From assembly GCA_023105745.1 (NCBI GenBank), contig JALGQZ010000008.1, forward strand, positions 46,559,618 to 46,623,617: 64,000 bases of DNA, in the 5' to 3' direction. Of this stretch, positions 23,511 through 61,413 are shown piece after piece (within the stretch, counting starts at the first letter, position 1; the number at the start of each line of letters is the position of its first letter). A program made the translations under genes and the position numbers. The notes beneath the pieces are model-generated. The model did no database searches. It saw nothing but the letters and a program-made list of their open reading frames with translations, and was not told the DNA's origin. Origin of the DNA: Austropuccinia psidii. Its lineage: Eukaryota > Basidiomycota > Pucciniomycetes > Pucciniales > Sphaerophragmiaceae.

Positions 23511-23525
23511 AACTCTTGATAATCT

Positions 23526-26500: not shown

Positions 26501-27369
26501 AGGTTTTGGGGCTGGTGCCTTCCCTTTGCCCTTGTTTGGAGTTTTGTGGCTGCTTTTTCACGTTGGAATTGCTGCTGCTGGCCACTGGGGCTGTTTTTGG
26601 CACTGGTTTGGCTGGTGGAGGGTTGTTTTTCCTCCATTCTAGTGTCAAAAGCATCATGTTTTTCTTCTCCATCAATGGATGCCATCCATTGAGCAATTTG
26701 CAAGGGTTGGGATGGCCCAAGAATTTTCTTACTGTCAGGTAAGAATTCATGCAATTCTTCCACAGGTCTGCAAGGATCTGGTACTCCTTGTACTGCAGTG
26801 CATTGTTGTAAGCTTTGTGGCTGGCTTTGTATATGTCCACTGAGGCTTCTTGTGGCGGTGTCAGCTCTTTTTGAAGGTAAAATGGTATTATCAGCTTCAG
26901 AATGACCCATTTTAGTTGTTTGGAAGTCATCAACTGACCCTTTTCCTTCTGTACCTGGTTGGCCTCTGCCATAATCACGTCTATTACCTTTTTGGGAGCT
27001 GCTTGAGGGGTTGTAGCTGGCTCCTGATCTAGTTGAAGGCATAATTATGGTTAAAAAGGCTTAAAATAGTATTTTTACGTCAAAAAACTTACTATTGGCC
27101 AAATTTTTAGCTTTCTGAAGGGTATTACTTATGTCCAAGTTAATTAATTCAGAAGATATTGGTTCAGGCTGGTTATTTTGAGTCACAATAACAGTGCTAT
27201 TATGATCAGAATTGACAGTACTGGCAGGGATAATGCTGGTTACTGTTGAGGCTGTTTCAATGTTTTCTTGTCTTACCACGTTGTCAGACACTAAAATTAA
27301 TGAAAAAGCCAATTAATTAAGTAAAAAAAGGATATTTCAAAAAAAAGAAATAAAAATTTAAGCCTCACT
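23526..27369 (-). CDS. A-young gag-pol, upstream part: Gag, protease, RT core
   Basis: I model exons as 27369 (single A), 27290-27093 and 27028-23526, giving 1,233 codons before the stop at 23526-23528. The splice sites are read by eye. The frame across both junctions is supported by A-old. Residue numbers below count from position 26978, the first codon of the unspliced ORF. Gag holds a predicted coiled region (about 270-400), a capsid-like region (about 455-600) and a CCHC knuckle C666, C669, H674, C679. Protease shows D787-P-G-A where D-S-G or D-T-G is normal. RT has the catalytic Asp in TTMDALKGF (1072) and YIDD (1135-1138). The ORF ends 12 codons after YIDD with TAG, and the downstream part follows in the same frame. 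Confidence 0.85.
27093..27290 (-). other. Conserved leader exon of family A (Gag N-terminus)
   Basis: 198 nt between an acceptor (TTTTAG) and a donor (GTAAGT), open in the frame that reads SDNVVRQENIETAS. A-old has the same exon at 29404-29601, also exactly 198 nt, with the same acceptor and donor and an ungapped open frame (SENMVRQENIESAS). Upstream, a donor GTGAGG (27368-27363) follows an A, so splicing joins A to TG and creates the start codon. Downstream, a 64-nt intron (27092-27029) leads in frame into gag. In element B a related piece is at about 39597-39698. Confidence 0.7.
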
Positions 27370-40165: not shown

Positions 40166-40315
40166 AATCTAAGGTTTGACTATGAAAAAATAAGTACATA
40201 TTAGTAATATTTTATTTATTGTACTCTTAATTTCCTAATTTGAATGAAGAATAAGATCAAAAATAATTATAAGAATAAATTATTATCTTAATTATGGACT
40301 GAAAACATCTATATT

Positions 40316-40340
40316 AGGGGGTGTCAAATTCACCAAATCC
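40316..40340 (+). repeat. Left terminal inverted repeat of the Harbinger-like element
   Basis: Begins AGGGGGTGTCAAA and continues with ACCAAATCC. It pairs with the right end at 22 of 25 positions. Further CCAAATCC/GGATTTGG-like motifs follow in the next 150 bases. Confidence 0.9.
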
Positions 40341-41678
40341 TGCGTTAAAATAACATGGGATTTGGAACCCAAATGCCAATACTAAATCCTGTGTTTTTTA
40401 TGTGTAAATCACATGGAATTGTAACTGAGTCCCCTGGTATTTTGACCAAATCTTATGCATCTGGGATTTGAGTTTTAAACCAAACCCAAATGAGTACTCA
40501 CAATTCATACCTGTACAACATATTGTTCTACACTCCATTTTGGACAATCTGACCAAACAGCTTACAGTCCATTTATACTTCTTCATCCATATAATAATCC
40601 CTTGTTCCACAGAAAGACACATCAAGTAATATATAAAGATCACCTCTGGCCTGCCACATCCATCAGGTAACTCAATACGTACAGATTATTTAAGCATAAT
40701 TAATTGGCTTTCAGTCAAGTCCAATTTCAACTCATGTTTTGGTACTAGTGGTTCAACATCTATTGGAAGATCTTCTTTGTCAAAGCAGCATGTATGTCAG
40801 CTTATGGCCATTGAGGTCAACAAAAAATCATGAAATTGCCTCAAACTTAGTTCAAGCAGCATCCAAAATTGATGGCAAACATATAAAAAGAAATATATGG
40901 CAGCAAAAAAATTTGAAAATTTAACTGGGGCTGGAATAAGGGAAGAAGATGAGAGTAAAGGAATAAAATCAATGAGTGAAAAGCTTGGAAGTATGTGGCT
41001 TTGCTATGCTGAAATGGATGTGCTCTTTGGCCACAAGCCCAATGTCACTCCCATTGAAGCCTATGATTCACAAGAAAAAGACAGCTTCCATGGTGATGAT
41101 GATGTTGATGTTTTGCTTGATAAGGTAATTTATCATCTCTTCCTTTTTTACCTGCAAAAATTAATCCCCATTTGCTTTTTAAAGGAGAATAATGGTTTGG
41201 AATCACCACTCAATCTGGTTCCTTTGCTTCATAATGAAGATGACTTGGTTCAAGAAGACAACCTTCAAGATGAATCAGTAAGTATGTTTGATCCTGATAC
41301 TTATGAAATCAATTGTTGATTATTTCTCCTTTGACCAGAAAAGTAAATCCATAATTCATTCAGCACAAAAGCATAATCAACTATGCCTCCCAACTTGAGT
41401 GACAAGAGTGGTTCTAGGAAAAGGCCGATGGATATGTTTGCACCAACATATGCAAATTTGCTTGAATCACGGCAAAAGGGTATGTTTTGGATGTATGGTT
41501 ACTCTGACCAATCCTACTGACAAAATGCATGATTTGTAGCCTATGAAACCAGTGAAAATGCTTGTTTGGAGTGGGAAAGGGAGAGGTGGAATGAAGAAAA
41601 AGCAAGAAACATGGAAAAGCAACGGTTTGAAGAAGTCAAGTTGCAAAATAAAATGGAGTTTGAGGAGAAGAAACATAC

Positions 41679-43883
41679 TGTAACAACCCTCCATCAGGGG
41701 TAAGGGTATTCATTCATACACCCACTCAAACACCTCAAATCAGCAAATCCAGTATGTGCATCAGCATTCAGTTTCAGAAATCTTCATTCTGAAACATGCA
41801 TACAGCTTGGTACATCAATACAGCCTGTCAATACCTATACAGGTTGGATTCACCCAATATGTCAGGATGAGTCTATGTTGAAGTGGAAATAAAGCTATTT
41901 ACAACTAAAACTATGACTGTGACACGTGGAAAATAGTTTAAAATAGTTTTATAAGGGTTAGGGATGGATTCATTTAATAATAAAGGGGCTTTACTATAAG
42001 AAATATAGTGGTGGTGAGCGCTGTTGAAAGCCCTGGGTGCAGCTTTACCTGTTGGGTTACAATAATAAAGACTACAATACTTTAAATTAAGAGTATACCT
42101 GTTTATTACCCAAGAGTAAAACTGTTTTTGACAGTTTACTACGTAGGGTATTCAAGAGCAGGATGAGGAAAGGTTTTTGGCTGCAAAAAGCCCTCCTTTT
42201 ATCCTAAAATTGAGGTGGAAAGGCTGCTAGACCTTTCCACGTAGAGGAAGTGAAGATTTTTCACTCTCTATGACAGGCTTGTGGTTTTCAAACAGCCTGT
42301 ATACCCTGTATTGGGCTCAGATGTGGTTTTGAAACCACATCTGGGCAGTTTTCACCAATACAGGGTGAAAATTTTCATCTGGGGACCTCACAGCCTGATT
42401 CTGACGTGTATGACGCGTAGAATGCTGTACAGAAACTGTATGGGACCCCAGTATTGACTGACATATGAGGTATTGAAGTAAAAACATGCTTCTTCGTCTA
42501 TTTGACACCTCATATTCATGGTTATGGGATATTATCCCATGGTAAGGCTGTATCTGACAGCAGGTGGGATTTTGACCTTAAAATGGTCATACCTCTGTCA
42601 GTTTTTGAGATATCAAGCTCAAAGTTGGTTCATTGAATAGCTCTGTATGAGCTCTACACAATGGTACCCAGCTTGACATGGTTATCATTAAATATGACAA
42701 AGTTATCCCATGTACAAGTATTTTTGTACATTGGCGTGGTTTGCATTAAAGCTGTATTAAGCTTGTTTGGCCAATAACTTCTGTTGTAGTTGAGTTATGA
42801 GGAAATGGATGGCACCATCAGATAGCCCTGATTGTTCTCTTTCCAAAAAGATGCCACTTTAGGTATCTCACACTAAAACTGTAAAAGTTCGATGAGAGGT
42901 GAATGTTTTGTTAACCCTTATTTGGTCTGAATTTGACCATAACTCAAGTAATACTGGTGCTAGCTCAGTTTGGCTGGTACCATTGGATAGCCCTGGCTTA
43001 GAGCTTCATTTTGAATACCCATTTGATGGGTTTAAGCCTCTCCTTCTAGATTTTAGATGAGAGGTGAAAATTGAGGTTTATGCTCAGCAATAACTTTGAG
43101 CAGGAATAACTCTGTTATTTCTTGTCCTATGGTGATGGGACTTATATTTTCAGAAAGAGGTGAGTTTCCTCTTTCTTCTGATACCTTTTGAGCTAATTTG
43201 GCTCAGTTCCATGTTTTGGTGGTATTTTGGCTATACCATTGGTTTATGGTATTTTGGCTGTCATGCTTGTGCTCTGGTTTTGAGTCACAGGCTGACACAA
43301 AACAGTTTCAATACACCAGTATGGAACTGTATGATCACTCAAATACACCACACCTCTTGTACAGACTCTGTACAGCTGTACAGGACCTGTATTGGCCAGA
43401 CTCAATTCAATCATCAATTATTCTCATGAAAATTCTTCCTCTGGATCAGGGCTGGTGATTCTCACATATACCAGCCCCTCTTTCTCCCCCCTGGGGACTT
43501 TTCCCCAGTTAATTAATTTAGTTTATTTATTATTTTATAATTATTCTTATCCTTATATTTGGGTATTATAATTATTTAATTTTAAGTTAGTCTTTGCCTT
43601 TTCTCTCTTTGCCTGTACAGTATGAGTTGGGTGGCCATATCCTTATTAACCCTTCTCTTTTCATTGTGACAGGTTGAAACAGTGGACTTGGACTTGTTTG
43701 TGGTTGGCTCTTATATTTCTTACTCTTATTTCTTGTTGCTGCTTTTCTTATATTTATTCTTTTAGCAATTCATCTTTAACACTCTTCAGTGTATTCCTTC
43801 TTACCATATCTTTGAGCCCTCCATAAGTGAGTCCCAGTTTACTGAGTGCCAGGCCCTCTTCACTTCAAAGAGCCCCTGTGACA
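41679..43883 (+). repeat. 5' LTR of element C, split by X2
   Basis: TGTAACAACCCTCC to CCCTGTGACA, in two pieces, 41679-41859 and 43303-43883. No TGG-type primer-binding site follows directly; the leader starts TTAAATTAATTAAC. Confidence 0.9.
41860..43297 (+). repeat. Repeat X, copy 2 (complete)
   Basis: 1,438 bp, the reference copy: TGTCAGGATGAGTC at the start and GAGTCACAGGCTGACA at the end, so the termini are short inverted repeats of TGTCAG. Flanks CAATA and CAAAA are a 5-bp duplication with one change; the uninterrupted 3' LTR reads CAATA. TG...CA ends and a 5-bp duplication fit a solo LTR of a further family. A foldback DNA element is the alternative. No protein is recognised. It includes a strong hairpin at 42318-42343. 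Confidence 0.85.
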
Positions 43884-44591
43884 TTAAATTAATTAACTCA
43901 TATTTGATTCTTTCTTTTCATTCATTTATATTCATTTTCTCTCATTCATCAATTATGATCTCTTTAATGATTTAATGACCTTGAATGATTATGATTTTTC
44001 TCTCTCATCAATTTCATCTCATTCATTTCATTCATCCCATTTCATTTTATCAAATCAATTTTTCTGTGTTCTCATTCAGGTCTTATTTAGGATTGTTTTA
44101 TTGGTTCAATTGATTGGATTATTCATTGGGATTCATTGGTTTCTTGATTCAGCGGCTCAGGATTCTTATTTGGATTGGATTGATTGATTTTGACTTCTCA
44201 AGATATTGATTGATCCTCAAGAGCTTATTTTGATTATTGATTGACTTTGAAACCTCAAGATATTTTATTGATCCTCAAGAATTGATTTTGATTATTGACT
44301 GATTTTGACTCATCAAGATATTGAATTGATTTCTGAAGATTTTAAATTGATTGATTGATTCCTCAAGACCTTGATTTCATATTGAAGACACTGATTTATT
44401 GATTGATGGATTATTGATTGAATATTGAATTGATTGTTGATTGTTGAATTGATTTGATTATTGACTGAATTTGATTTCACCTCAAGATTTGAATTGATTC
44501 CTCAAGATTCATCAAGATTTTATTGTGATTGACTTGGCCCAGTTCTGATTATTATTCTCATACCATCAAGTTTTATTTCATTTTGTCAAAA
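43884..44591 (+). other. Leader of element C with degenerate tandem repeats
   Basis: Untranslated leader between LTR and gag. From about 44140 to 44540 it is built of imperfect units of GATTGATT and CCTCAAGAT-type words, spaced roughly 50-60 bases. Position 43920-44060 is rich in TCATT repeats. No conserved ORF is seen. Confidence 0.7.
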
Positions 44592-45953
44592 ATGCCAGTT
44601 CAGCATAGTCCCCCAGCCAAAAATACTAGATCCCAAAGAATTCAAGCTGTTCTCACTTCTACAGCAAGGGCTCCTCTTGACCGCACACCATCAGTTCATC
44701 AACTGAGTGCAAACTTGGACAGAGGACCACCAATGGAAGGAGCAGCACCCTCAAGAAGAGGTGGAATGAAATCTAGAAGATCAAGATCCTTTTCTGGACT
44801 TTTGGGTGGCTACCCTGGCATGTCTGAACGTGCAAGAGCAAGACAAGGGGAAGTTGAAGATGAAGAGGGGGAAGAGTCTGTGGAAGAGGAATATTCTGGG
44901 GAATCTGAAGTGGCAGATGCCTTGGCAAATGCTCCAGAGGTGCCTCAGGGTTCTAATCTAGCCCTTTCTAGTAAACCTCTTGTCTCTCAAACTGATCCAA
45001 GTCTCCTCAAGATGATGGAGAAGATGACTCAATTCATGGGGCAACTCACTCAAGAAGTTGCTCCCAGGGACAATTCCAAAGCCCCTGATTTCAAGACTCC
45101 ATCCATGAAGACACCTGATTCTTTTGATGGTACTCAAGCTCATAAATTGAGAGGATTTATTCAATCCTGTCAATTAATCTTCCATAATGATCCAGCAAAT
45201 TTCTTCTCTGACAGGAAGAAAGTTCTTTACTCAACTTCTTTTCTCACTGGTAGAGCTGGAAAGTGGATTGAACCCTATCTCTCAAATATCTCCAATGAAG
45301 ACCCTTCCTACCTCCTGAATAATTGGCCCTTATTTGAATCTCAACTATTCACTCTGTTTGGTGACCCCAATGAAGTCTAGAAAGCTGAACAAGAGTTGGA
45401 CAATTTGAGGATGAAGGAAAGTGGTCATGTTTCCTTGTACATTGCATATTTCAGAAGCTTAATGTCACGAATTGGAGATTGGGGGGAAAGAGCTTATATC
45501 CATGCTTACAGAAGAGGATTGGCATCAAGATTATTGGATCAGTTGGCTTCTCACCCTGGAACTTTTGATACTCTTCAATAACTTATGGATGTCACCTTAG
45601 AATTGGACACAAGATATCATGAGAGGCAAAAAGAAAAGGGTGGCAATCAAGAGAAGAAGCCTCCAGTCATTGGATCCAATCAATCTAGTCCTCCTCAAAA
45701 CTCATCTTCAAAGAGGTCTCACCAGAAGAAGAACAAGAAGGGCAAGCAATTTTAATCTTCAAAGGACAAGCCCCATGCTGCTCTCCTCAATGAGGACAAT
45801 AAATTAATTGGTTCTGAAAAGGAGAGGAGGATTAAAGAGGGGTTGTGTACTTATTGTGGTGGAAAGCACCCAATTGAAAAATGCTTCAAGAGACCTCAGA
45901 ACAAGCCTGGGTCATCATCAAAAGGCTTCCCTAACAAGCAGGGAAAAGCCTGA
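44592..45953 (+). pseudogene. Element C gag
   Basis: Start ATG at 44592 (MPVQHSPPAKNTRSQR), stop TGA at 45951. The order is a basic/acidic N-terminal segment with a Glu-rich run, a Ty3/Gypsy capsid region (about 45110-45580: FDGTQAHKLRGFIQSCQL, GRAGKWIEPYL), a Lys-rich linker and a knuckle CTYCGGKHPIEKC (C-x2-C-x3-H-x4-C, one residue shorter than usual). In-frame stops TAG 45378, TAA 45579 and TAA 45753 break it. All are single-codon changes and the frame is otherwise continuous. Pol follows in the -1 frame. Confidence 0.85.
45941..45947 (+). other. Putative -1 ribosomal frameshift site GGGAAAA
   Basis: In the gag frame the codons are CAG GGA AAA GCC TGA, so the heptamer has the X-XXY-YYZ phase. 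A -1 slip leads into AGC CTG AGT GGG, the open protease frame. The gag stop is only four bases downstream. No strong stem-loop is obvious to me just after it. Confidence 0.6.
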
Positions 45954-48900
45954 GTGGGAATCATGATGTGTTCAATGGTTCTGACTTATTTCCTTCAAGA
46001 GCACAATTGTGCACTCTGAATACTAGTGTCAAGAAATCTTTAAAATTTCTTATTTTCTCTTCTGTCTCTTATATTTTTTATAGTATTCTCATTGATTCTG
46101 GTGCTACAAACTCTTTTATTGCAAAGAATTTTGTTCTCAAGTACTCATTGACTCTGTCAGAGCCCCCTGAAAAGATTCCTCTTTTCATTTTGGATTCTAA
46201 TGAATCCCCTACCTTGTTCATCACCCATTATACCAAGTGGGTAGTTGACTTTCCTTCCTTCCCAAGCTCTGAATGGGACTTCTTTATCATAGATTCACCC
46301 AAGGGAGAAGACCTGATATTGGGCTATGATTTCCTTTACCATTTTAATCCCATTATTGATTGGAAAAATGGATTGATCACCTATGTTTCTAGTCATCAGG
46401 ATTCTAGTGGTATTACTCCTTCTACTAGTAATGACTTGGCCACTGCTGTCAACAGTGTTGCTCTGGTTGGTGAACTTAAGACACCTTCCCTTCCTTCTTC
46501 TGTCCATATCCCTTCCATCATTCCCTCTCAGTAATTACTTCCATTAAGAGATTAAGTCTTCAAAGAGATAAAAGAGGTTGGAGAAGATATTGCTATATCT
46601 TCACTTCATCTCTTTCAAGGGGATATGGACATTCCTACCTTATCCTTTCATGCATCCCTGGAGGAGCAGTGGGATGAGGAGGAAGATCCAGAAGAAATTG
46701 AAACTGTGTTGAAGGTAGTACCTCCTGCTTATCACCAATATTTGGATGTATTCTCCAAGATGAAAGCTGAGAAAATTCCTCCACACCATGCCTGTGATCA
46801 CCATATTGAATTAGAGGGTCTTCTACCTCCAATTGGTGTTATCTACTCATTATCAAATCAAGAGTCAGAAACACTGCAGGCCTACATTTCAAAGAATGTA
46901 GAGAAAGGTTTCATTAGACCAAGCTCCTCTTCAACAGGAGCACCTGTCCTTTTTGTCAAGAAAAAGGATGGAGGTCTTTGTTTGTGTGTTGACTACCACA
47001 AACTAAATGCTGTCACTAGGAAGAACAGATACCCTGTTCCTCCTATGACCAAGCTCCTTACCATATTCAACGGTTCCACTATCTTCTCCAACATAGATTT
47101 GCGTGGTGCATATAACCTTCTGAGAATCAAAGAGGGGGATGAGCACTTAACTGCCTTTAGAACCAAATATGGTAGCTATGAGTATTTGTTCATGCCATTT
47201 GGTTTGACCAATGCTCCTGCTTCTTTCCAAGATCTAGTAAATGATATCTTTGCAGAATTTTTGGATGTGTTTGTTGTGGTTCATTTAGATGATATTATGG
47301 TCTTTTCCAGTTCTGAGGAGGAACATGTCAAACATGTGGCCTCTGTCCTCCAAAGACTGAGGGACAATAATCTGTTTTCCAAAGCCTCCAAGTGTGTATT
47401 CCATGCCTCAATTGTGGAATACATGGGCTATGTTGTTTCAAGTGATGGCATCAAGATGGATTCTATAAAAGTTCAGCAAATCCTCAATTGGCCTCAGCCC
47501 AAAAACATCAAGGCCCTTCAATCTTTTCTTGGCTTTGCCAATTTTTATCGTTGTTTCATTAAAAATTATTCCAAAAAAATCACTTCTCTCACTTCCCTTA
47601 TCAAAAAAGATTCTCCTTTCATCTTCAATGAGGAAGCTCTTAGTCAGTTTCAAGCACTCAAAGAAGCTTTCACCTCTTCTCCTATCTTATCCCATTTCAA
47701 TCCATCTCTACCTACTATTGTAGAGACTGATGCTTCTGATTATGCATTGGGCGCCGTATTGAGTCAGGTGAATGACTCAGGAAAGCATCCCATTGCATTT
47801 GATAGTTGCAAGCTCTTACCAGCTGAACTCAACTATGAAATCCATGACAAGGAACTCCTTGGCATAGTTTGGGCTCTCAAGTGCTGGAGGGCATTTCTTC
47901 TTTCTCTTTCCAATCTTTTTGAGGTCTTGACAGACCACTATTCCTTGCTGTATTTCCTGTCTTCCAAAGTTCTTACTTGTTGTCAGGCCCGTTGGGCTGA
48001 ATTTCTCTGAGAATATCATTTCACTATCACTTACCGCCCAGGCAGGCTGGCCACTTTACCAGATGCCTTGTCACGTCGGGACGACGTGTACCCAGAGAGG
48101 GGAGTGGACTTCATCAGAAAGAATCCTCAAACTTTTCATCAAGTACTTAAGCAAGATGGAATTCAAGAGTAAAGATTCTTCTCAATCAAAGTGGAAATTT
48201 TCTCAGATTTAGTGGACAAGATTCAAAAAGAAGTATGGCAAGACAAAGACTATAAAGAAATACTCAAGCAACTAGCAAGAGGTGAATCAGTTCCAGGTTA
48301 TTCTCTTGAACCTCAAGCCAAGTTATTATTATTCAAAGATAGAGTGGTAATCCCAAGCAATGAAGAACCTCAACTCAATATTCTTCAAAAGCGTCATGAC
48401 TCACCATTGGCTGGCCATCCTGGCCAGGAGAAGACCCTCAAGCTCATCAAGAGGGATTTTTATTGGGCTGGCATCAATCAATTCATCAAGGACTATGTGT
48501 CCTCATGTCAGCAATGCTCAAGAAACAAGAACATTCATCACAAGAAGTTTGGATTACTCAAGCCTCTTTTGATTCCGTCTGCTCCTTGGAATTCATTATC
48601 AATGGACTTCATCACTCAATTGCCACTGTCAAACAACTTTGATTCAATTTTAGTAGTTGTGGACAGATTCTCAAAAATTGCAATCTTCATTCCAACTTAT
48701 GGAACAATCACTGCTCTGGATTTAGCTCAAATCTTCATTAGTCATGTATTTTCCAAGCATGGCCTTCCAATCAGTATTTTCAGTGATAGAGGATCCTTAT
48801 TTGTTTCATCATTTTGGACTCAACTGTGTCAGCAGCTCAAGATATCAAGAGATCTTTCAACTGCCTTTCACCCTGAAACAGATGGACAGACAGAGAGGGT

Positions 48901-49669
48901 AAATCAGATACTAGAACAGTACCTTTGGATGTATGTCAGCTATCATCAAGATGACTGGTACACCTGGCTCCCTCTGGCTGAATTTGCCTATAATAATGCA
49001 GAACACTCATCAACCAAGCAATCACCTTTTTTCACCATTTATGGAAGAAATCCCAGCTTTGACTCAATCCATATTTCTCAAGACTCACCTGCTGGAAAGT
49101 TATCAACAAAACTCCAATCAGTACAGCAAGTTGTCAAAGAAGAATTAGAGTCAGAAATAAGGATATTCAAGAAGTATGCAGATAGAAATAGAGCGATTCC
49201 ACCTGATTTCCAACCTGGGGACAAAGTATGGCTAGCTTCCAAGAACATCAAGACCACAAGAACCACCAAGAAGTTATCAGAAAGATGGTTGGGACCTTTT
49301 GAAGTTCTGAAGAAGATTGGAAGCCATGCATATCACCTCAAGTTGCCTCAGCAATGGAAGACAGTTCACCCTGTATTCCATGTGTCCTTATTAGAACCAG
49401 TCAAGCATTCAACTATCCCAAATCGTCATCAATTGCCGCCACCACCAGTTTTAGTGGAGGAGCAAGAATAATGGGAAGTGGCTCAGGTTCTGGACTCAAA
49501 ACTCAAAAGAGGTAATTTATGGTATCTTGTATAGTGGAAAGGATTCAGTGAAGACCCAGAATGAACCACTTGGGAACCAGCTTCAAGCCTTACCAACTCA
49601 CCAGACCTTGTCAAGGACTTCCATTCATTGTATCCAGACAAGCCTGGTCCAAATACCTCAAGAGTTTGA
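45948..49669 (+). pseudogene. Element C pol: protease, RT, RNase H, integrase, chromodomain
   Basis: One frame throughout, broken by stops at 46532, 46553, 48008, 48170, 49469, 49532 and 49562. Protease has D-S-G-A (about 46096) and ILGYDFL-type sequence near 46320. RT (46850-47400) has the catalytic Asp in NIDLRGAYN and HLDD at the YxDD site, Tyr replaced by His. RNase H shows ETDASDYALGAVL and YEIHDKELLGIV. Integrase (48380-49000) has HDSPLAGH, CQQC and D, D, E in SMDFITQL, SDRGSLF and TERVNQ. The GPF region (RWLGPFEVL) precedes a chromodomain (49472-49600, with WYLV, stop, WKGFSEDPE). The first stop upstream of RT is TAA at 46532, just after protease. Confidence 0.88.
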
Positions 49670-50333
49670 TTTATGGTTCTTGTTGGGGAGAAGAAGTTAT
49701 GAAAGTTCAGGAAGCATACAACACCAATACCCTCTGATTTGGACCTTATCAAGATATGGCCAAATGTTCCTTTCTTTGTTTTTCTTTTCTTTCTTTTTAT
49801 TTATCTTTTCAATTTATGCCAATCATCATAATTCAAGACATTCATTACTTCAAGTCATTTACGGCAATTCTTTTCAGAAGTCATTTATGGCAATTCATCT
49901 CAGAAGTCATTTATGGCAATTCTTTTCAATTTTATGGTGCTTGGTGGGGAGTGGAAGTTATGAAAGTAAGTTCCATCTCCTGGTATGCATCCCTGAGGGT
50001 TCTACTTCTTGTAAAACATCACCTTGGCCACTCTGTGAGCATCAAATGCTTGGTTTTCATTTTTCAGACCCTTTTTGGCCAGAATCAAGCAACTCACCAC
50101 AAGGAGGACCAGCCATCAGGATTTTTTCTTTATTTCTTTCTTTACTCTCATTTTCTCTTATTCTTTTATTTTTCTTTCTTTATTTACTTGTATAATTTTC
50201 TTTCTTTTATTTCTTTAAAGCAGCAGCATCCCCTCCCAAATCATGTATTGGGAGGTTCCGTTATTTTTCATGTTTTAGTATTTATAAGAGTGGGGATAGA
50301 AGTCAAACCAAACACAAACAAGGAAAAGAAAAA
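49670..50333 (+). other. Spacer after pol with a 26-bp triple repeat
   Basis: Non-coding. Three tandem 26-bp units at 49854-49879, 49880-49905 and 49906-49931 (each starting GTCATTTA and including GGCAATTC) differ at a few bases. Around 49770-49800 and 50120-50215 are runs of TTCTTTCTTT. Confidence 0.75.
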
Positions 50334-51487
50334 CTAGTTATCTCTACCCAAATCATCAAAAGTTCTCTGGAAATCATTTATCAACTCATCTTCTTACCAC
50401 GCAAATTTTGCAGCCATCTCTTCAGAAGCAGTACCTGGAATAGTCCTGTCATTGGCATACATAATCACCTCTCTGCTATTTCTATCAACCCTCCTGAACA
50501 ATCTGGCCACAGCATCTCGACTTTCACTAGCCGCGTTGGGATCTTCTCTGGTAACACGGATAGGCCAACGTTCTCTTCTTTGAAAAACTTGAGCAGCAGG
50601 AAACAGCAAAGGGGACAATCCATCTCTTCTTCTGCTGGAGCTGGCCACAGGTTGGAGTTGATGGGAGGTGTTTATGGGTGAGTTTCTGGACTAGTGAACT
50701 GGTGATGGTCTTACTGCTGGATTCAAGGCAGGCCTGGTGGTGTGGGAAGTAGTTGGTGAAGGAGGAGGAAGGGTTGTAGGAATGGAAGCAAGCATTTGTT
50801 GGAAGGTTCTTGGAGTGCTGGGAATAACTTGACTTTAGAATCTGGTGTTGGCAAGAGGTTGATAAGAAGAATTGCTGGACGGATGGCCAATTGAATGAGG
50901 AATAACTTGAACTTCTTCACAATTCAACTCATCACTTCCTTCAGCATCTGGATCTGTTGGGGAATCAACAATTATTCTTAGTTTCTTCACTACTTTCACC
51001 ACTCCATCAGCATTGGTCCTTGAGATTGGGATTTCTGAGCTGTAGTGTATGGGCCTACCACCGGTTGGAGTGGACCCTTCAACATTAGTCCATCTGGCCA
51101 CATCCCTCTGCCTGGAACCAGTCACTACATCAAAATATCAGCACCAATTCAACCAAAATATGCAAATCACTCACATTGAGAAAATCCAGAAGTTGCATCA
51201 GGGGTAGGCTCCTCAAGAATGGGGAATTCCTGCCCATGAGGCCCATCTTTCCTGCTCCATAAGTGTCTCCTGACCTGGGACAAAGTTGATCCGGTACGGC
51301 GGCATGGCTTCTTCCCAACAAAGCAAAAGTGGCATTTTGACGATCGAGGATTGTAATGTTGAAAGAAATCCTTACCCTTGACCAAACACTCAGTACAGGC
51401 AGGATCAAGAACTTCAACTGCTCTGAACCCATCATATGTTTGGGAGGGATCAAAATGGCCAGAAGACGCCATGGAAAGGGAGGACAA
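50334..51487 (-). pseudogene. Antisense Cys-rich gene carried by element C
   Basis: Minus strand, opposite to gag-pol, between pol and the 3' LTR. Exon 1 runs from TTG 51487 (or the first ATG at 51472) to 51175. A 50-nt intron with GTGAGT donor and TAG acceptor spans 51174-51125. Exon 2 runs to TAG 50334-50336. Splicing keeps the frame (SGFSQ, then TGSRQRDVARW). Exon 1 has Cys pairs with spacing typical of a small zinc-binding module (DPACTECLVKG, SKCHFCFVGKKPCRR) ahead of a WSRKDGP motif. The middle is Pro/Ser-rich and the end conserved-looking (DAVARLFRRVDRNSREV). Three nonsense codons interrupt exon 2 (50835, about 50692 and 50394). I recall many similar unannotated proteins from rust genomes; function unknown. 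Confidence 0.65.
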
Positions 51488-52558
51488 TCAACTGAAGACA
51501 CCCGAACCATGAAGAACAGACGGTGGTGGTGCAGAAGGAGAAGATTCAGTGAGTTCAGTCAGTTTGGAACTCATAACTAAAGAATATGCAAGCAGAAGAT
51601 TCAAGACGTCAGAATCAATCCACTCCATATCAAGAAAAAGGAATTTGACCTCAAGGAAATGGGGCCATAACTCAATTATGCCCCCCCTCAAAGCCTGTAA
51701 GGTGAAGGTTCATACCCCTTTGGGGCTGAACCCATCACCCAGGGCCTCCCCTGCAACTTTGAGGAGGCCAGGATCTTGATGTTCCTGGACCCCATCAATG
51801 GGTCCAGGCCATGTATGGTGATATCTATGATTGAGCCATTTTTGGGCCCCTTGGTCACCCTGGGTCCCCAGCAAATTTGGGCCCAGGGGCTCCATTTTGG
51901 TCCTGGGGGCCTCCAATAACCCCCACAGACCGCGGTCCGCGGCGTACGGCCCATGGACCGCAGACCACGGACCGCGGACCGTAGGACCCCAAAGGCATAA
52001 AAAGGCCAAATATGGCCAAAAATCATATAAATACCCAAGTTCACCAAAACACCCAAAAGGCCCAAAAGGCCATAAAAATCAAGAAATGTCAAGATTCATC
52101 AGGGGTAAAGACCACAGCCCAAAAAGCACTTTGGAGGGCTGTTGAGGCCATTTACATGGGTAATGGGGACAAGACCCCTTGGAGGAAATTTTTTCAATTT
52201 TTCAATGGATTAAGCCTTGCCCAATGAGTACACTTCATATACTCATTGGGCATCATTTTTTGAGCACAAGAGCTCAGTGGTCCTTATTCTGGGATACATT
52301 CCAAGGGCATGGTTGATTGATTCAGAGGAAGACAAAAGCATATTCAAAGTGGAATACTTACTCAAACTTGGAAAAAAAGGGGGGAATCAATTGATTTTGA
52401 CAGAGAAAAAGTAAAAGAAGGACTTTCAGTATAATGGTCAAGAGGAAGAGAAAATTAAAAAGAAAATTTTGGAAGAAATGTGGGGATATTGAGATGCCAC
52501 TCAACAGTGGCAGGGTATTATGGTTTTCAGGAGACCACCAGTTTCAAGAGGGGAATAC
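51488..52558 (+). other. 3' untranslated region of element C with GC-rich palindromic block
   Basis: About 1.1 kb without convincing gene. At 51927-51987 a GC-rich block, alien to the AT-rich surroundings, repeats ACCGCGG/GGACCG words with three CCGCGG sites and overlapping inverted repeats. From 52000 on it is A-rich. A short plus ORF at 52217-52414 is not recognised. Confidence 0.7.
52546..52555 (+). other. Polypurine tract of element C
   Basis: AAGAGGGGAA lies three bases before the 3' LTR, the normal place for plus-strand priming. Confidence 0.6.
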
Positions 52559-53320
52559 TGTAACAACCATCCATCAGGGGTAAGGGTATTCATTCATACA
52601 CCCACTCAAACACCTCAAATCAGAAAATTCAGTATCTGCATCAGCATTTAGTTTCAGAAATCTTCATTCTGAAACATGCATACAGCTTGGTACATCAATA
52701 CAGCCTGTCAATACCTGTACAGGTTGGATTCACTCAATACAGTTTCAATACACCAGTATGGAGCTGTATAATCACTCAAATACACCACACCTCTTGTACA
52801 GACTCTGTACAGCTGTACAGGACATGTATTGGCAAGACTCAATTCAATCATCAATTATTCTCATGAAAATTCTTCCTCTGGATCAGGGCTGGTGATTCTC
52901 ACATATACCAGCCCCTCTTTCTCCCCCCTGGGGACTTTTCCCCAGTTAATTAATTTAGTTTATCTATTATTTTATGATTATTCTTATCCTTATATTTGGG
53001 TATTATAATTATTTAATTTTAAGTTAGTCTTTGCCTTTTCTCTCTTTGCCTGTACAGTATGAGTTGGGTGGCCATATCCTTATTAACCCTTCTCTTTCCA
53101 TTCTGACAGGTTGAAACAGTGGACTTGGACTTGTTTGTGGTTGGCTCTTATATTTCTTACTCTTATTTCTTGTTGCTGCTTTTCTTATATTTATTCTTTT
53201 AGAAATTCATCTTTAACACTCTTCAGTGTACTCCTTCTTACCATATCTTTGAGCCCTCCATAAGTGAGTCCCAGTTTACTGAGTGCCAGGCCCTCTTCAC
53301 TTCAAAGAGCCCCTGTGACA
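52559..53320 (+). repeat. 3' LTR of element C
   Basis: 762 bp from TGTAACAACC to CCTGTGACA. It gives the uninterrupted sequence at the X2 site (CACTCAATA then CAGTTTC) and so proves the X2 insertion in the 5' LTR. Confidence 0.95.
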
Positions 53321-53422
53321 CATACAAAGAAATATGAATTTGAAAAAGAAAAGTGGAATAGTGAATTGGAATTGAAGGAAACGCAATGCCAGATGGATCT
53401 CACTATAGCAGCATTGTCATAA

Positions 53423-54975
53423 AGCAGGCCAATTGGGGAGCTGGAACGCATTCTGACTTTAATCAACAAAAAATAACATATTAGGGATACATCATGTGAT
53501 CATTTTATATGTGGTTATTTTTTAGATCAAACTGATGTTTATGTTTAATTATTGATCTTATGTCATGAAATCTAACTTCACTTTATTATCAAATTGAAAA
53601 TTCAATGTTTATGCATAATTGGGGAACCAACTTGTAATTTCAATTTTGTACAAAATTTAATTGCAATTCAGTACAAAATTGAAAATTTGGGCCAGTTTTG
53701 CATCAAGATTTTATGTGAAGTCTGTTCAAAATGAAATTGATGGCTCCCTCCATATTTCCTTTTGTTTGGAATTTTTGCCAAATATAAGTTTATGACACCT
53801 TTTTTCCTTTTTTTTTGAAATGGTATTTAATGTCATTATTTATTTATTTATTTTAATTTTTTCATCTTTTTCTATATGTTTTGTTTTTTTTTATAATTCA
53901 TTATTCATTTGTATTTTTTTATTTTGAATTGATTGAACTTTTAATTTTGTAATTTTCCTTTTATTTTTGATTTTTGATTTTGAATTATTTTTTTTTAGTT
54001 TGAAGTTTTTTTCTAGAAAATTTTGATTTTTTTTTCAATTTCAATTTTGAATTCTTCATTTCTTATTTTTATTTTTCCTTTTAACCCCTCACTCTTCCAA
54101 AAGAATTCACCATTTTTTTAAATCAGGTAAGTGAATTTTTCTGGTTTTTATTTCACAACTCTGATTTTTTTCCACCTCATTCTGATTTTTGTTTTTTTTA
54201 TAGGTAATTTTTTTAAATTTTATTTCATTTATTTTATCCACCTCAAGAAATCCCCCATTGATCACCATCCCCCACCAAAAACCCACCATCCATTACCATG
54301 CACCTCCTAAAAGCCCCCACCCATCACCATCCACCTCCAAAAACCCCACACCCATCTCATTCCTCCACACCACTCACCCTGGAACCTCCCCAAAAGGCTC
54401 CTGGGAGGTTCCAGGGCCTAGCTGGCTCAAATCGCGTGGAATCAATTCTGAATAGATTCTGAGGCTTTTTTTGAATTTTAATGCTAATGGCCTCAAGAGG
54501 CCATTAGCATGGTTTTTATTTTATTTTCTTTTTCTTTTTCTTTTTTTAATGATATAATACTGATATACTGTTTTTTTTTAATTTTTATTTTACCAATCAT
54601 AATCTTATTTATGATTTTTTTTCTAATGAATGATCTTTCAATGCTGTTTTTTTTCTTTTTTTGAATATCATAATCATGAATCACTGATGATGAATTTTTT
54701 ATATTTTATTTTTTTTGAATCATAATAATTTTGACTTTATTTTTTTTGATCATTATGATTGCTGACCTTTTTTTTTTCATAATCAGCATCATTAATAACT
54801 GATGATTTTTTTTTTGCTTTTTTTTTAAATCATAATCATGTTGAACTTATGATTATTATTTTTTGGATGATAATTATTACTGACCCATGATTGATTTTTT
54901 TATTTTAATTTTTGTTTAAACTTTTTATTTATTTGTTGATATAGGGGAGGATCATTTATAAGGGTTTCTTTTGCA
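53423..54975. other. Intergenic part of the Harbinger-like element with two strong hairpins
   Basis: No gene. From 53800 to 54240 it is T-rich. At 54240-54420 there is a C-rich plus strand, ending in an inverted repeat with 14-bp arms and a 12-base loop (54377-54390 and 54403-54416, starting CCCTGGAACC). At 54481-54510 there is a 30-bp hairpin with 14-bp perfect arms around AA (starting ATGCTAATGG). From 54590 to 54930 follow degenerate units of poly-T and TCATAATCAT. It lies directly upstream of the dioxygenase gene. Confidence 0.7.
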
Positions 54976-57900
54976 ATGTCATTCAATTTCACCCCCATTC
55001 CATTATACTTGAAATTCACAAAAAATGCTCCTCCTCTCTCTCACTCTTCAAATCATTTTGATGATGTCATGGTTAGGACTAAACCAGACACAGCACATCA
55101 TCAGATTGATTTGAAAGATGATGAAGCTATTATTACTCCTTTTGATGTCATGGTTAGGACTAAACCAAATGTAGAACATCATGAGGATAATAATACCAAA
55201 TCAAATCATAAAAGAAAGCTTACCCAAAGCCAAAGACAACACATCCATTATTCAAAACAAATTGTGTCTCACCTTGGCCATTCAAACAAAGAATATAAAA
55301 ACTTTTCAACCATTTCAATTGACAAGAAATCAGCCAATGCCTCATGGTTAAAACCTCCATCTCTCAACACTCTCCCCCATCCTTATATACTCATGGATTG
55401 TAAGTTGTGGATATGAAACTTTGATCAAAAATCAAGTACTTTTCCTGTCCTCAAAATTTGTATAAGGTAAAATTCAGTTAAAAATAGTATGAAATATTAT
55501 TTTTAAGAGAAAAGACGCCAATTTTATTGTTTATAACTTTATTAGTATAAAACAATAATATTATAAAAATTTATTGTTTTACCAACAATAAAAATTTCTC
55601 CAAAAAATACTCTACAAGAGATATTTTAAGGCTACAAAAGAAATTTCTTCAAGAGCAATTTCAATTGGAATTAATTGAGCAAAGAACTGCAAGCAATTAA
55701 TTAAAGAACAAAGTCTTTAAAAAGAATATTAAAGAGAAAACACACCCAAAAGCGACCACAGTGAATTTGGAAACAAAGTGACAAAGTTTACAGTGATGAA
55801 AGATGCTTTAATTCACTTTTGGGGTGGTTCAGGGGTAAAAATGATTATAAGAGTTACAAACAATGATTATAATGATTTTTTCACGTGGTTAAAAGGATTA
55901 AAATGATTTATAAATGGTGGTTGGAATCTTTGATTGATTGGTTTAACAGTGTTTAAACTAATTAATAAAAGGAAAAGATTCTAACATGAAGAGAAAAGTG
56001 GGGCAAAGAAGACATTCTTTTATAGCCATCAATTCTCTTACTCCAAAAGTAAATTTTACTCTTGTCAGTCGTGAAAAACAGTCTGACAACAGAAAAGCCA
56101 ATTATGGCATCATTGAACCCTGGTATAGACCAAAAAGGGCTGGTTTAAGCCATTTTTAGCCATTTTAGACCCTTAAATCAGCCATTACTATAGCAATACC
56201 AGGCCTAGAGCCTTCAAAACACGTCAGAATGTGTGTAAGAGGCGTAGAAACCAGTTAAAACTGTTTTTACTATGGTTGTTTTATCTTAAGGGTAGTTTTA
56301 CCCTCTTGGCAACAGCTAAAACTACCCCAGTTGGTATCAAAACCTCATCATCAATTGAGTCCACAGACCCTGTAACTCAATTCCAGGCCAAAAGTGATGA
56401 ACCTTTGCGTGAATTTTGACATCCCATGCCTGTCAGCAAGGATTTTGGTGGTCTAGCTCCCCCTTAGAGCTAGAGTTCCTTTTCCCCCCCAAATTTAATC
56501 TTTCCAATTTATTTTTCCTTTAATTCCTCATCATGTATTATACTCATAATTTACATATGTAATTCAATTGAATTGTACAGTACAATACAGTAATAATTGA
56601 CACCTCATATGTAAATCAAAGTTCACTTATTTAATACACGTGCACATTTTGACATTTCAATTGAATTCAATTGAAAATACTTCAGTTCCTCATAACTTCT
56701 AAACTAAACACAACACCTCAATTTTAACACAAAATTTGCTGGTTAACACCACATGTGGTGTGAATTAAATTAAGGCTTTGAGGATTTTCAACTTTTGTAT
56801 TGAAAATACTAAAAACTTAATTTAAGCTTATTTAGAGTTGAGTTACAAGAATTTCACTCAGAGGTGACCCCACCTGATTTTTTATGAGGAATCCAATGGT
56901 GAAATAATTTTTATTTGTTTATTTACTGGATAAAAAGTTATAATAATTTTTATTTAACGTTTTTCCAAATTTATTTATTTTTTCACAATTTTGTTAAAAT
57001 CTTATTTTTACTTAATTTTTTCAAGTATAAATGTAATTTTATACTTACAGAATTTAATGTATTTTTATTTTTAAATTGTAATTAATTTTTTTTATTTTTA
57101 ATATAATTTTATATTTATATTTTGATTTTTATTTTAATAATATAAATAAATTCATTTTATTTATATTAATATGTTATTTTTGTATTTGTGGTCTTTTGGG
57201 TATATGAAATTACCTCTAAGGCTCATATGGATAAAACAACAAAGGCCTTTTTGCCTGTCATCATATATGAAATAACCCCTTTTGATAATTCTTCTGGACA
57301 CTCTCAAATTCTTCAAAACCTCATCATGACATTAATGTTCTTATCTCAAAATCAACAAGAAATTGAAACCAATAAGCAACTCCAAGGTGGAATTATGAAA
57401 GGTATTGGGTTTTGTTCTGGTTCAGATTCTGGCAAATCTGCAGGTGTGTGATCTTTTTTGCTTATCATTTTAATTGTTACTAAATAATTACCAAATTATT
57501 AGGTGTTTACTCCTGAAAACCAGCTTTAACTCCTCATCAAATTGAAACAGATAATAACCAATGGACCAAACTTCATCAATATGACAAATTTTTTTACTCA
57601 ACAATCTCCCATTTTTCAACATTAGCAGCTAATGGAAATCAGTCATTAATGGAAGCAGCCAAATTACCAAACTTCAGTAAACTTGAATGGACTTCTTCCA
57701 ATACAAAAGAAGAATTCAAATCATTTACCAATGTCATTGTCACTCAAGATCGATTTTTCAATAAGCCACACCAAGATTTAAATGATCTCAATGCCTGGCC
57801 TTATGGTATATTTTCTTTTGTATCAAAAAAAGATTTCCATTCCCTTCCAACTGTCTTAATCCCCTCTGGACATGGTTTGCACTTCCCTAAATTGAAAATG

Positions 57901-58146
57901 GAGATCAATTCTTCAAAAAAACCAGGAATCATGGAAATTCCTTGGAAGACATCAACTATGGTTTATCATACAACAAACCCTCCTCCAGAAATTATCAATC
58001 ATGATGAAATAACTCATTTTGGATTTTCTTTTCAAATAAACCATAAATTATTTAATTTAGGTGACAAATTATTGAAAATGACACCCACCAAAATTAATTC
58101 AAAGTCAATGGGTACTTTGAAAGAAATATGCAGGATCAAAAAATAA
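54976..58146 (+). pseudogene. TET/JBP-like 2OG-Fe(II) dioxygenase carried by the Harbinger-like element
   Basis: Exon parts are 54976-55398 and 57233-57443 (split by an A LTR, in frame when one TGGAT copy is removed), then an intron 57444-57502 (GTGTGTGA...ATTAG), then 57503-58146. The N-terminal part is low-complexity, with a duplicated VMVRTKP segment and KRKL basic residues. The C-terminal half resembles the rust Tet-like dioxygenase domain. H-x-D lies at 57769-57777 (FFNKPHQDLND) as candidate iron ligands, with a distal His in MVYHTT (57967). The 2OG-binding Arg expected near FSFQINHKL appears to be Lys. A TGA at 57514, right after the intron, breaks the frame. TET/JBP enzymes oxidise methylated bases. 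Identification rests on motif recall, not on a search. Confidence 0.65.
55399..57227 (-). mobile_element. Solo LTR of family A in the dioxygenase gene
   Basis: 1,829 bp, TGTAAGTTGTGG to GGCTCATA (the last CA changed to TA), with a perfect duplication TGGAT (55394-55398 and 57228-57232). The sequence is close to the A-young LTRs. The TATA box is at 56017-56025, minus strand, oriented against the gene. Confidence 0.95.
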
Positions 58147-58247
58147 CTAAAAAATATGAATGGTAAATAGTTTTATTTTACCAATAGCATCTCCACTCCA
58201 TTGTATGCCATTAAATTAAGTACATAAATCAATGGTCCTGATGAAAT

Positions 58248-59491
58248 TTACAATTGACTATTTTTCCATTCCAAAGTAATTGGTTTAATTTTTTCATGCA
58301 TATTTACCACATCTTCCCCAATGTTGTTATTGGCCAGATTTTCTGCATGTGGTTGATCATCATCTTCATATAAATCAAACCATTCATCACCAATTTGTGC
58401 TAAAATATTATGTAAAATCATGCAAGTAACAACCCAACTAACAAAATATTCAATTTCATGATTATCCCTCATTTGATTTTGCATTTCCCTTAGAGAAAAC
58501 CACCTCCCCTTCAGAATTCCAATTGCATGCTTGATTCTAACCCTCAATTTTGCTAGACAGTAATTGAAAGAAAAATTGTCTTCATTCTATGCTACAACTC
58601 CCTTATATGCCAGAACAACCCAAGGAGAGCTTGAATATGCTGAATCAGTAAGTAAGTCCTGATCCTTTTTCATAAAACTCTTGCAGTGTTTGTGCTATTT
58701 TCATATGTTTATAGGCATTCAAATAATGAAGTGATCCAGTACAGCCAACATGTAGAGCAGTGAACTGTTTGTTGATATTGCAAACCAGTTGTATTGACAT
58801 AGAATACCTCAATGGTAGACAATTAGTAAAAATGAAATAAAGAATAAAGATTCAACAGGTTACCTCTTTTTGTGATCAAAATAGGTTTCACCATCATTGG
58901 GGGAATTTTGTGATAATGGTATGAGACCCCCATCAATAAACCCAATGCCCCCAGGGAAGCCTTCCGCTTGCATTACTTGAGAAACCTCTCTTTGTTGTTC
59001 TATTGTTGGCCATACAATCACTTTGTGCTTCAACTTCATTAATATCTGGATCACTCTTTGAGTGTACAACACAATAGCCCCATGGCAAAATTCCAAATAA
59101 CATTCCAATCTTTCCCAAAGTGACCCCATTGCCATTTGATACTAGCCTTGATAATTTGTGATGAGTTTTGAAAGGTTTTATCAGCTTAAATTTGTGCAAC
59201 CAATTTTTCAAATGATTCATGTGTGGTCTTACATAGCTCTCAAAACTTTTCAAATGATAATGTTTTTAAATCATTCGTTGTATACATGTAATGTGATGGA
59301 GATCTTCTACAAGGATTGATGTATCTTTCTGATGTTATCATATCTAATAAGATTATATCTTCCTGGATATCAGAATCACTATTCAAGTTGAGAGCATCAA
59401 TGAACTGCAGTGAGATTAAGGTCTGAAGTAAAGGTAGCCTTTGTGATTCCTTGGGCATGGTAAATGAAGAAAAGGCCTGTAGTAAATGCAA
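58248..59491 (-). pseudogene. Harbinger-type DDE transposase (HARBI1-like), inactivated
   Basis: Minus-strand pieces are 59491-59240 (N-terminal), 59253-58860 in two overlapping frames (GNGVTLGKIG, then HGAIVLYTQRVIQ, WPTIEQQREVSQ, GFPGGIGFIDGG) and 58830-58248 (ending RVRIKHAIGILKGRWFSL, WVVTCMILHNIL). These match the DDE_Tnp_4 family in order. The first Asp is present in FIDGG. At the second site the usual HD is HY (SLHYLNAY). A third Asp remains near 58645 (TDSAYS frame). The expected Glu in RxEHxxG is Lys (RIKHAIG). Frameshifts near 59090 and stops near 58590-58680 also break it. Transcribed away from the right end, convergent with the dioxygenase gene. Confidence 0.8.
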
Positions 59492-59757
59492 TTTGAAATC
59501 AAATACTTTAATAAATGATGAGAGTATTCATATTTCATGCAAGAGAACAAAAGGTTTATGCATTTTAACATTCCCTTACTGAGTTGTGTGTTTTAAACAT
59601 GTGCCTTGATGGGAAGCTAAAGGCCAGATTTTAATATTTAAACATGGGATTTGGTACCAAAAACCTGGGTTTTTGTACCTTAAAATACCACACCTCTTGA
59701 GGTTTGGGATTTCTAAAATCTCAAAACATTAATGCAGTGTTTTGGCAAAAAAAAGTG

Positions 59758-59782
59758 GGATTTGGTAACTTTGACACCCCCT
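59758..59782 (-). repeat. Right terminal inverted repeat of the Harbinger-like element
   Basis: Reverse complement begins AGGGGGTGTCAAAG. Subterminal GGATTTGGTACC-like motifs lie at about 59648-59660, mirroring GGATTTGGAACC near 40358 at the left end. Confidence 0.9.
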
Positions 59783-61413
59783 ATTATTGAAATACAAAAA
59801 ATAATATAATAAAATAAATATATTTATGGCAATTTATTATTCTTCCCAACAAATAATAAATGTGTAAAAGCTTTTCATTTAATAATAAAAAACAATTTTC
59901 AACAATAATATAACTAATATTAAAGCTATATATCAATATAAATACTATTAATATCAATAAAAGAACTACTCAGATTAAGAAGAAAAGAGAAAAAAATTAT
60001 AATAAGTGAAAATAACCTACTTTTGACACTTAATATAATAATTTTGAATAAATTTAGGCCTAAGAGTATAAATACAACTGATTCAAATTGTATTTAAAGT
60101 GAAAAATACAGATACTTACAAATTTAACTATTTCTATGTGGAAATGAGGATTTTAAAGAGAATTCAAAGAGAACAAAAAACATTGGATCAATAACATCAA
60201 AGTTGGTGATTACTAAAAGGCTGATCTTTGGTCTCAATCAATATAATACTTTTATATATAAAGAGTAAAGAAATTACATTTTTGATTCAATTTTTTGATT
60301 TTTTTGATGTGTCTGGGGGAAAATAGAGCAAAAAGAACACCATTTCTATTAGAGTCCTTCCCCATGAAGTAAAGATGAATTCTAGTAGATGGTTTCTAAT
60401 GGTGTCCACTACAAATGATGAATATTTGAAGGCTTAGTGATGATTACATGATAATTAAACCTTCTTATCTCATTATTTAGATTTATCATTCTAACTCTAG
60501 TTTTGCTGACCTCATAGGCTTGGAAAAAGGTTAAGCTTTTGGGATTTTATTATTATTCAGCATAAAATACTAGTATCTGCCAGTTGTATCACTTATTTAA
60601 CTGCTAAAGTTAAAATAAGATTACAGTTAATGATAATTTCTAAGCTATAACTTTGATCACCGATACCTCTTGAGTTATTCACACTAGAGAAATTCAAGGA
60701 GTGAATTCTGATGGCTTTGAATGTCCTTTTTAAGATTGCAAGAGCATTTCATTACAAAATCAAATATCTAGTTTTAATTATTCTTCTTGTAACTCATCTT
60801 TCCTGTTAAAATCTACTATTTTAGACTTTAAACCATGATTTCATGGGTTTTTACCTTAAATATCATGATGAAAATCACATCATTCTTCATGTATGAAGTA
60901 GGATAATCTGAATATATAATTTTTTGAAGCTTGCACAACCCTTAAAACAAATTGGTCAACAGCTATTTCTATTTTTCCCAATAAACCCTTGTAAGTCTTA
61001 ACTTTGTCTCTAACTTGCCAAATGATGTTTTTATCTGTAGTCTTACAGTTACTTTCTGGTAAATTTATTTTTGGATCAACTCTTTATCATGCCTATTTCA
61101 ATAGATAAGATCTAGAAGCCATTAATATATGTGCTGATTATAAAAAGTGCATATATTCAGATTATCTCAGTAATTCATGACTTTACATGTATGAAATAAG
61201 AATGTTCTATGTGTATTTCTTGATAGATATTCCAATGGTTTAATTTAACTTACATGTTCATTCATTGGTTTCTGAGATAATCAAGAATTTATGCCTTTTT
61301 ATGGAATCTTTAGCTATCTTAGGATTATAATTTTAATTATTATTGTTAAAATAAGTTTTTCAGAATTGTTTTGTGGCCTTTTGGGATATGTGGTCATATC
61401 TCAAAGGCTCACA

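Follow-up and report, generated by a model that had tools for sequence, protein, structure and literature searches.

A broken copy of a PHISTA-type Harbinger element in Austropuccinia psidii carries a Tet-like gene with a signal of past selection and a histidine at the presumed 2OG-binding arginine position

The window, a 64,000-nucleotide stretch of Austropuccinia psidii contig JALGQZ010000008.1, contains an element that is bounded by terminal inverted repeats (TIRs). The left TIR (GGGGGTGTCAAA..., 40317-40341, plus strand) is preceded by TA at 40315-40316 and the right TIR (59757-59781, minus strand) is followed by TA at 59782-59783, giving a TA target duplication on both sides of the element. 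The two TIRs are imperfect, agreeing in 21 of 25 letters; the left one is the best left match within the window. In other copies TA preceded the left TIR in all ten cases in which that TIR was found (14 regions fetched), and TA followed the right TIR in 26 of 30 copies, the window included. Between the TIRs lie, in order, a third ("partner") gene, a Tet-like gene and a DDE transposase gene. This arrangement, a Tet-like gene between a partner gene and a transposase and within TIRs, had been proposed in a preliminary description and was borne out by matches to PF20515 and DDE_Tnp_4 and by the TA-flanked TIRs.

The element spans 19,465 bp from TIR to TIR, a length that is inflated by two nested insertions, one a Ty3/Gypsy element and the other an LTR-like repeat. 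Subtraction of both insertions and of one copy of each duplication left 5,984 bp, which is close to the common spacing of TIR pairs in the genome. The nested Ty3/Gypsy LTR retrotransposon (41679-53320, plus strand, 11,642 bp) was delimited by its LTR pair and junctions and carries RT, RNase H and integrase domains. It is flanked by the duplication CATAC (41674-41678 and 53321-53325), and its left LTR holds a further repeat at about 41862-43297. Elsewhere in the window, the minus strand at 21120-27044 holds another retroelement, whose RT, RNase H and integrase frames are long and open.

The Gypsy insertion cuts the partner gene, on the plus strand, into a 5' part (40873-41676), which is in pieces and includes an open piece at 40873-41316, and a 3' part (53326-53476), recognised by its reading frame and interrupted by an internal stop at 53420-53422. 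The Gypsy element was absent from 13 of 14 upstream regions of other copies, the two parts of the partner gene being contiguous there; the remaining region (L042) matched neither piece. No Pfam family was matched by the three 5' pieces of the third protein in the window, and the 3' piece gave a sub-threshold coiled-coil match. Among relatives of the protein, Myb_DNA-bind_4 was matched in two of eight, again below threshold, and three of the 120 that were listed bear a Myb/SANT-like name in UniRef. Sequence comparison with the 40873-41316 piece found 163 relatives; the 120 that were listed could be used, and 119 of these are named as A. psidii. One listed relative was dropped because it had no O181 tag; none of the 119 that were left lay near a Tet or transposase relative by locus tag. 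Most of those listed may come from other elements, which a related protein may serve.

The Tet-like gene lies on the plus strand. Exon 1 (54976-55398) is an open frame with an N-terminal sequence as in the relatives P0050 and P0060, and was complete in 25 of the 29 other copies. It is followed by the second nested insertion (55399-57227, 1,829 bp), which was recognised by its junctions and by other copies of the repeat in the window, three in number and 94-97% identical to it. The duplication TGGAT flanks this insertion at 55394-55398 and 57228-57232, and in each of the 25 other copies whose exon 1 is complete the repeat was absent and exon 1 adjoined exon 2. On account of this duplication and this absence, 55399-57227 was rejected as an intron. 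The actual intron is at 57446-57502; it measured 55-57 bp in all 29 copies compared and had GT..AG ends in 24 of them. Exon 2 (57228-57445) was full in 29 of 30 copies, the window included. Exon 3 (57503-58146) holds the PF20515 domain, an HxD motif and a distal His; in the window an in-frame stop, at 57514-57516, falls within the exon as given in the preliminary description. The window copy is broken, since the Gypsy element splits the partner gene, the LTR-like insertion splits the Tet-like gene and exon 3 contains this stop.

The profile search that had been suggested for the Tet-like translation gave a clear match: the 209-residue open piece at 57517-58143 matched PF20515 (Tet-like 2OG-Fe(II) oxygenase) with 59.6 bits against a cut-off of 27 (E=5.7e-16), over profile positions 67-210 of 211. 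The annotated relative P0004 matched the same family at 2.6e-34, and 103 of the 104 Tet relatives came from A. psidii MF-1. A profile search of the PDB with the Tet-like protein returned three weak hits (E 0.68 to 0.82), with no TET chain among them. The predicted structure was poor (mean pLDDT 44.9) and was built from 39 closely related proteins. PF20515 is hugely expanded in the 1.015-Gb assembly, with 7,499 first-look candidates, and all 150 that were scored passed the cut-off; other PF20515 clades are plentiful in the same genome. In one of these other clades, open PF20515 frames of 396 residues that hardly differ from one another are found at three loci on two chromosomes (L001, L002 and L003); they have Arg at the 2OG position and may represent a young Tet-carrying element.

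The transposase gene (58246-59460, minus strand) is decayed and of the PIF/Harbinger type, as judged by its DDE_Tnp_4 matches. Five minus-strand pieces were recovered between 58248 and 59527; the piece at 58248-58586 passed the DDE_Tnp_4 cut-off (25.9 versus 24.8 bits), that at 58645-58851 matched below the cut-off (15.5 bits) and the other three matched no DDE family. The annotated relative P0105 matched at E=1.4e-17, and all 32 transposase relatives were from A. psidii MF-1. At the position that we take, from the DDE family, to be the third catalytic one, the window copy has Lys; among 30 copies Lys was found in 21 and Glu in seven, and among the 32 annotated relatives there were 11 with Lys, six with Glu and 15 in which the position was not found. 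The Lys-majority transposases (58246-58640) look as if a disabled-transposase subfamily had spread with help from others.

The recurrence of this arrangement was examined in several ways. A DNA search with 57503-59781 gave 2,381 first-look candidates, of which 40 were scored, and 34 of these 40 places, the window included, reached from the Tet exon as far as the right TIR, with matches that began no later than query base 4 and ended no earlier than base 2261. As these are the best matches, the count indicates that such copies are many and does not give their share among all copies. The exact 26-base end TAGGGGGTGTCAAAGTYACCAAATCC occurred 1,346 times in the genome (681+665), and the reversed control pattern did not occur on either strand (0+0), so that the TIR pair was rejected as a product of chance. 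Among 100 listed ends, all on one sequence (C1), there were 34 convergent neighbours less than 30 kb apart (null expectation: mean 0.86, maximum 6 of 2,000). Each of the 34 convergent pairs consists of one C-type and one T-type end, and 16 of the pairs measure 5.6-6.4 kb.

Of these pairs, 29 were shorter than 10 kb (five others exceed this length), and the first 20 of the 29 were then sampled regardless of Tet. The stretch expected to hold Tet exon 3 was probed in each pair, or the whole element for the two shortest, and Tet exon 3 was found in 15 of the 20. The Tet-less pairs comprised two derivatives of 2.2-2.3 kb that have neither exon 2, exon 3 nor the transposase, one pair of 4.5 kb with other element sequence at the probed place, and two pairs of 7.6 and 7.9 kb with no element sequence there. 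The two derivatives of 2.2-2.3 kb (L067 and L071) share the same TIRs and the same internal structure and are likely to be a non-autonomous derivative family. In the opposite direction, all eight Tet exon-3 hits listed on C1 that fell in the covered range lay 1,640-1,680 bp inside a T-type end and in the matching orientation; a ninth listed hit lay beyond this range. Some TIR pairs thus lack the gene (two of 20) or showed no Tet exon 3 at the probed place (three of 20), but all eight hits lay close to a TIR end, so that the outcome named beforehand as evidence against carriage, element copies lacking the gene together with the gene standing alone elsewhere, was not encountered in that form.

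Linkage was also evident in the annotation of the MF-1 assembly, in which a Tet relative lay within three locus tags, on a contig of equal length, for eight of the 32 transposase relatives; a jittered-tag null gave a mean of 0.21 and a maximum of 4 in 20,000. One Tet relative without an O181 tag was dropped from this comparison. Independent copies support the earlier proposal: the Tet-like gene travels in an element of PIF/Harbinger type that has TIRs of its own and is distinct from the KDZ elements. The window region is a broken copy of a high-copy TIR element, with a layout that is typical for the genome, and the joint recurrence of its parts was directly observed.

Tet-bearing Harbinger-type elements are already known, both in kind and in A. 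psidii. In six species of Pucciniales, A. psidii among them, Kojima 2025 describes fifteen families of TET+ Harbinger elements that have TA duplications (PMC12730594). The lineage was named PHISTA and encodes three proteins, the third of which is described as having no Myb/SANT domain (PMC12730594). Like PHISTA, the window element has a TA duplication, a Harbinger-type DDE transposase (DDE_Tnp_4), a TET/JBP gene and a third protein, and from the published account no difference between it and the PHISTA elements of Pucciniales was established. The element is accordingly regarded as PHISTA-type, a placement made by published description. Canonical PIF/Harbinger elements differ in having a 3-bp target duplication, whereas the A. 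psidii element has TA only. The KDZ elements (Kyakuja, Dileera, Zisupton) are similar in being basidiomycete DNA transposons that carry a TET/JBP gene, but their transposase belongs to another superfamily; 8-bp duplications are described for Zisupton and one Dileera family (PMC12730594). As far as that report was seen, the selection signal and the fixed His presented below are additions to it; its main text makes no mention of Arg or arginine, the alignment figure being outside this search (PMC12730594).

Our preferred reading, which we consider probable, is that the window holds a broken copy of a PHISTA-type element in which the transposase would move the unit, the Tet-like protein would act on 5mC and copies would thereby escape silencing. 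The transposase would cut and paste the whole TIR-bounded unit; the Tet-like protein would act on methylated cytosines of element copies, by oxidation or another use of 5mC; and copies that escaped silencing by CpG methylation could then be transcribed. We infer the 5mC chemistry and the anti-silencing role. Escape from methylation silencing was also proposed by Kojima 2025, where the case for function was based on coding regions that are mostly undisrupted and on the large number of TET+ families in each genome (PMC12730594). Weighing against the preferred reading are the His at the Arg position, the PDB profile search with no TET among its hits, the poor structural model, the absence of CpG sparing, the selection comparisons for exon 2 alone and the C part of the transposase, which were not significant, and the zero of 119 listed third-protein relatives that were linked by locus tag.

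CpG methylation of transposable elements in A. psidii has been reported (PMC12774611) and inferred (PMC8063080), and CpG loss has likewise been reported or inferred in these two papers (PMC12774611, PMC8063080), the main texts of which contain neither the word dioxygenase nor the word Harbinger. The observed/expected CpG ratio was 0.133 for the window and 0.077 for the element's own stretches within it. Across 30 copies the ratio was 0.117 inside the element versus 0.187 in the flank beyond the right TIR, and there was no sign of lasting CpG protection inside these copies when compared to that flank. Such protection is not to be expected in copies that are old and broken. The earlier suggestion that the element edits DNA methylation around itself was not borne out, given the missing canonical Arg and a CpG ratio that is lower inside the copies than in the flank.

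Both the H-x-D motif and the distal His that had been noted in the window copy are present, and the complete HxD..H Fe(II) triad was intact in 33 of 42 copies, the window copy among them, and in 37 of the 51 annotated relatives that cover all three positions. The position 16 residues after the distal His is taken here to be that of the 2OG-binding Arg of TETs. At this presumed position His was found in 41 of 42 copies and Asp in one; the Arg that had been sought alongside the HxD motif and distal His was not there. Annotated Tet relatives of 190 residues or more (46 of 104) were aligned, and among the 29 with a letter at the position there were 21 with His and none with Arg. The protein resembles CcTET of Coprinopsis cinerea (AG type) in the HxD..H Fe(II) triad of the TET/JBP group but differs from it in having His at the canonical Arg position. 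In another PF20515 clade of the same genome, Arg was found in all five aligned sequences, among which L001-L003 are nearly identical. Five of eight loci entered that alignment, L004, L005 and L008 being left out; L004 shows Arg as printed, and the open frames of L005 and L008 stop before the position.

These results bear on an alternative that we regard as possible, though clearly less so than the preferred reading: that the Tet-like protein was maintained but is not a canonical 2OG-dependent 5mC oxidase, using another co-substrate or binding methylated DNA instead. Retention of the Fe triad in most copies while His occupies the Arg position in nearly all of them argues for it, as do the Arg of the other clade (five aligned sequences and L004) and the past purifying selection indicated by shared variation in the gene. 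There is also a precedent in CMD1, a TET/JBP relative that uses vitamin C (PMC12730594). Conversely, 2OG could be anchored by a different residue, and the structural prediction is of low confidence. The placing of the Arg position is itself our assumption.

Copies of Tet exon 3 differ by a median of 9%, and most are decayed. With the frame fixed, exon 1 was free of stops in two of 25 copies, exon 2 in 13 of 29 and exon 3 in five of 30; one of 25 copies had no stop in any of the three exons. The column majority of each Tet exon is nonetheless an open frame. No codon-position bias was seen in variants shared by two or more of 25-30 copies, the distribution being flat. A split by the number of sharing copies, chosen after this flat result, was applied to non-CpG variants of Tet exon 3 in a set of 42 copies, made up of 30 copies from the DNA search and 12 of the 15 Tet-bearing sampled pairs. 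Private variants comprised 70 synonymous and 282 nonsynonymous changes (20% synonymous; neutral expectation 21%), those in two or three copies 31 and 103, and those in four or more copies 38 and 51 (43% synonymous); the difference between the last class and the private variants was significant (Fisher p=2.5e-5). In smaller sets of 22-30 copies the same comparison gave p=0.0044 for exon 3, p=0.019 for exon 1 and p=9.3e-5 for the N part of the transposase; neither exon 2 by itself (p=0.47) nor the C part of the transposase (p=0.099) reached significance. The non-coding right end, used as a control, had no synonymous-type bias (p=0.57). Variants of related copies are not independent, so these p-values are rough; with that qualification, the comparison of copies gives a signal that the Tet-like gene was formerly under purifying selection. 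A fitting history would be constraint on the gene during the active period of the lineage and unhindered decay of the copies thereafter.

Such a history makes it unlikely that an amplifying element captured the Tet-like gene a single time and has since carried it as a neutral passenger. The widespread decay of the sampled copies and the neutral appearance of private variants are what a passenger would show, but variants in four or more copies lean synonymous in Tet exon 3, in exon 1 and in the N part of the transposase while the non-coding end is unbiased, and the majority sequence of each Tet exon has an open frame. That a Tet-like gene of a separate transposon landed in a Harbinger element by chance, and in this window only, is extremely improbable even in a window full of nested repeats, since the order and spacing repeat in other copies and the linkage is found in another assembly (MF-1); 34 of the 40 best copies and 15 of the 20 TIR pairs rule out a chance nested neighbour.

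A more specific idea is offered tentatively, with somewhat less confidence than the general alternative of a maintained, non-canonical protein: the Tet-like enzyme may be a selected non-canonical member of its family, with the Fe(II) triad kept and His fixed in place of Arg, that acted as a transposon anti-silencing protein. If this were true, the co-substrate of the enzyme may be a different one, or the enzyme may recognise 5mC without oxidising it. TET-carrying transposons offer an opportunity to learn, in nature, whether mobile elements counter DNA methylation by means of an enzyme. The comparison of shared and private variants adds evidence that the gene was under selection while the element moved, and the fixed His at the presumed 2OG-binding position puts the assumed chemistry in question.
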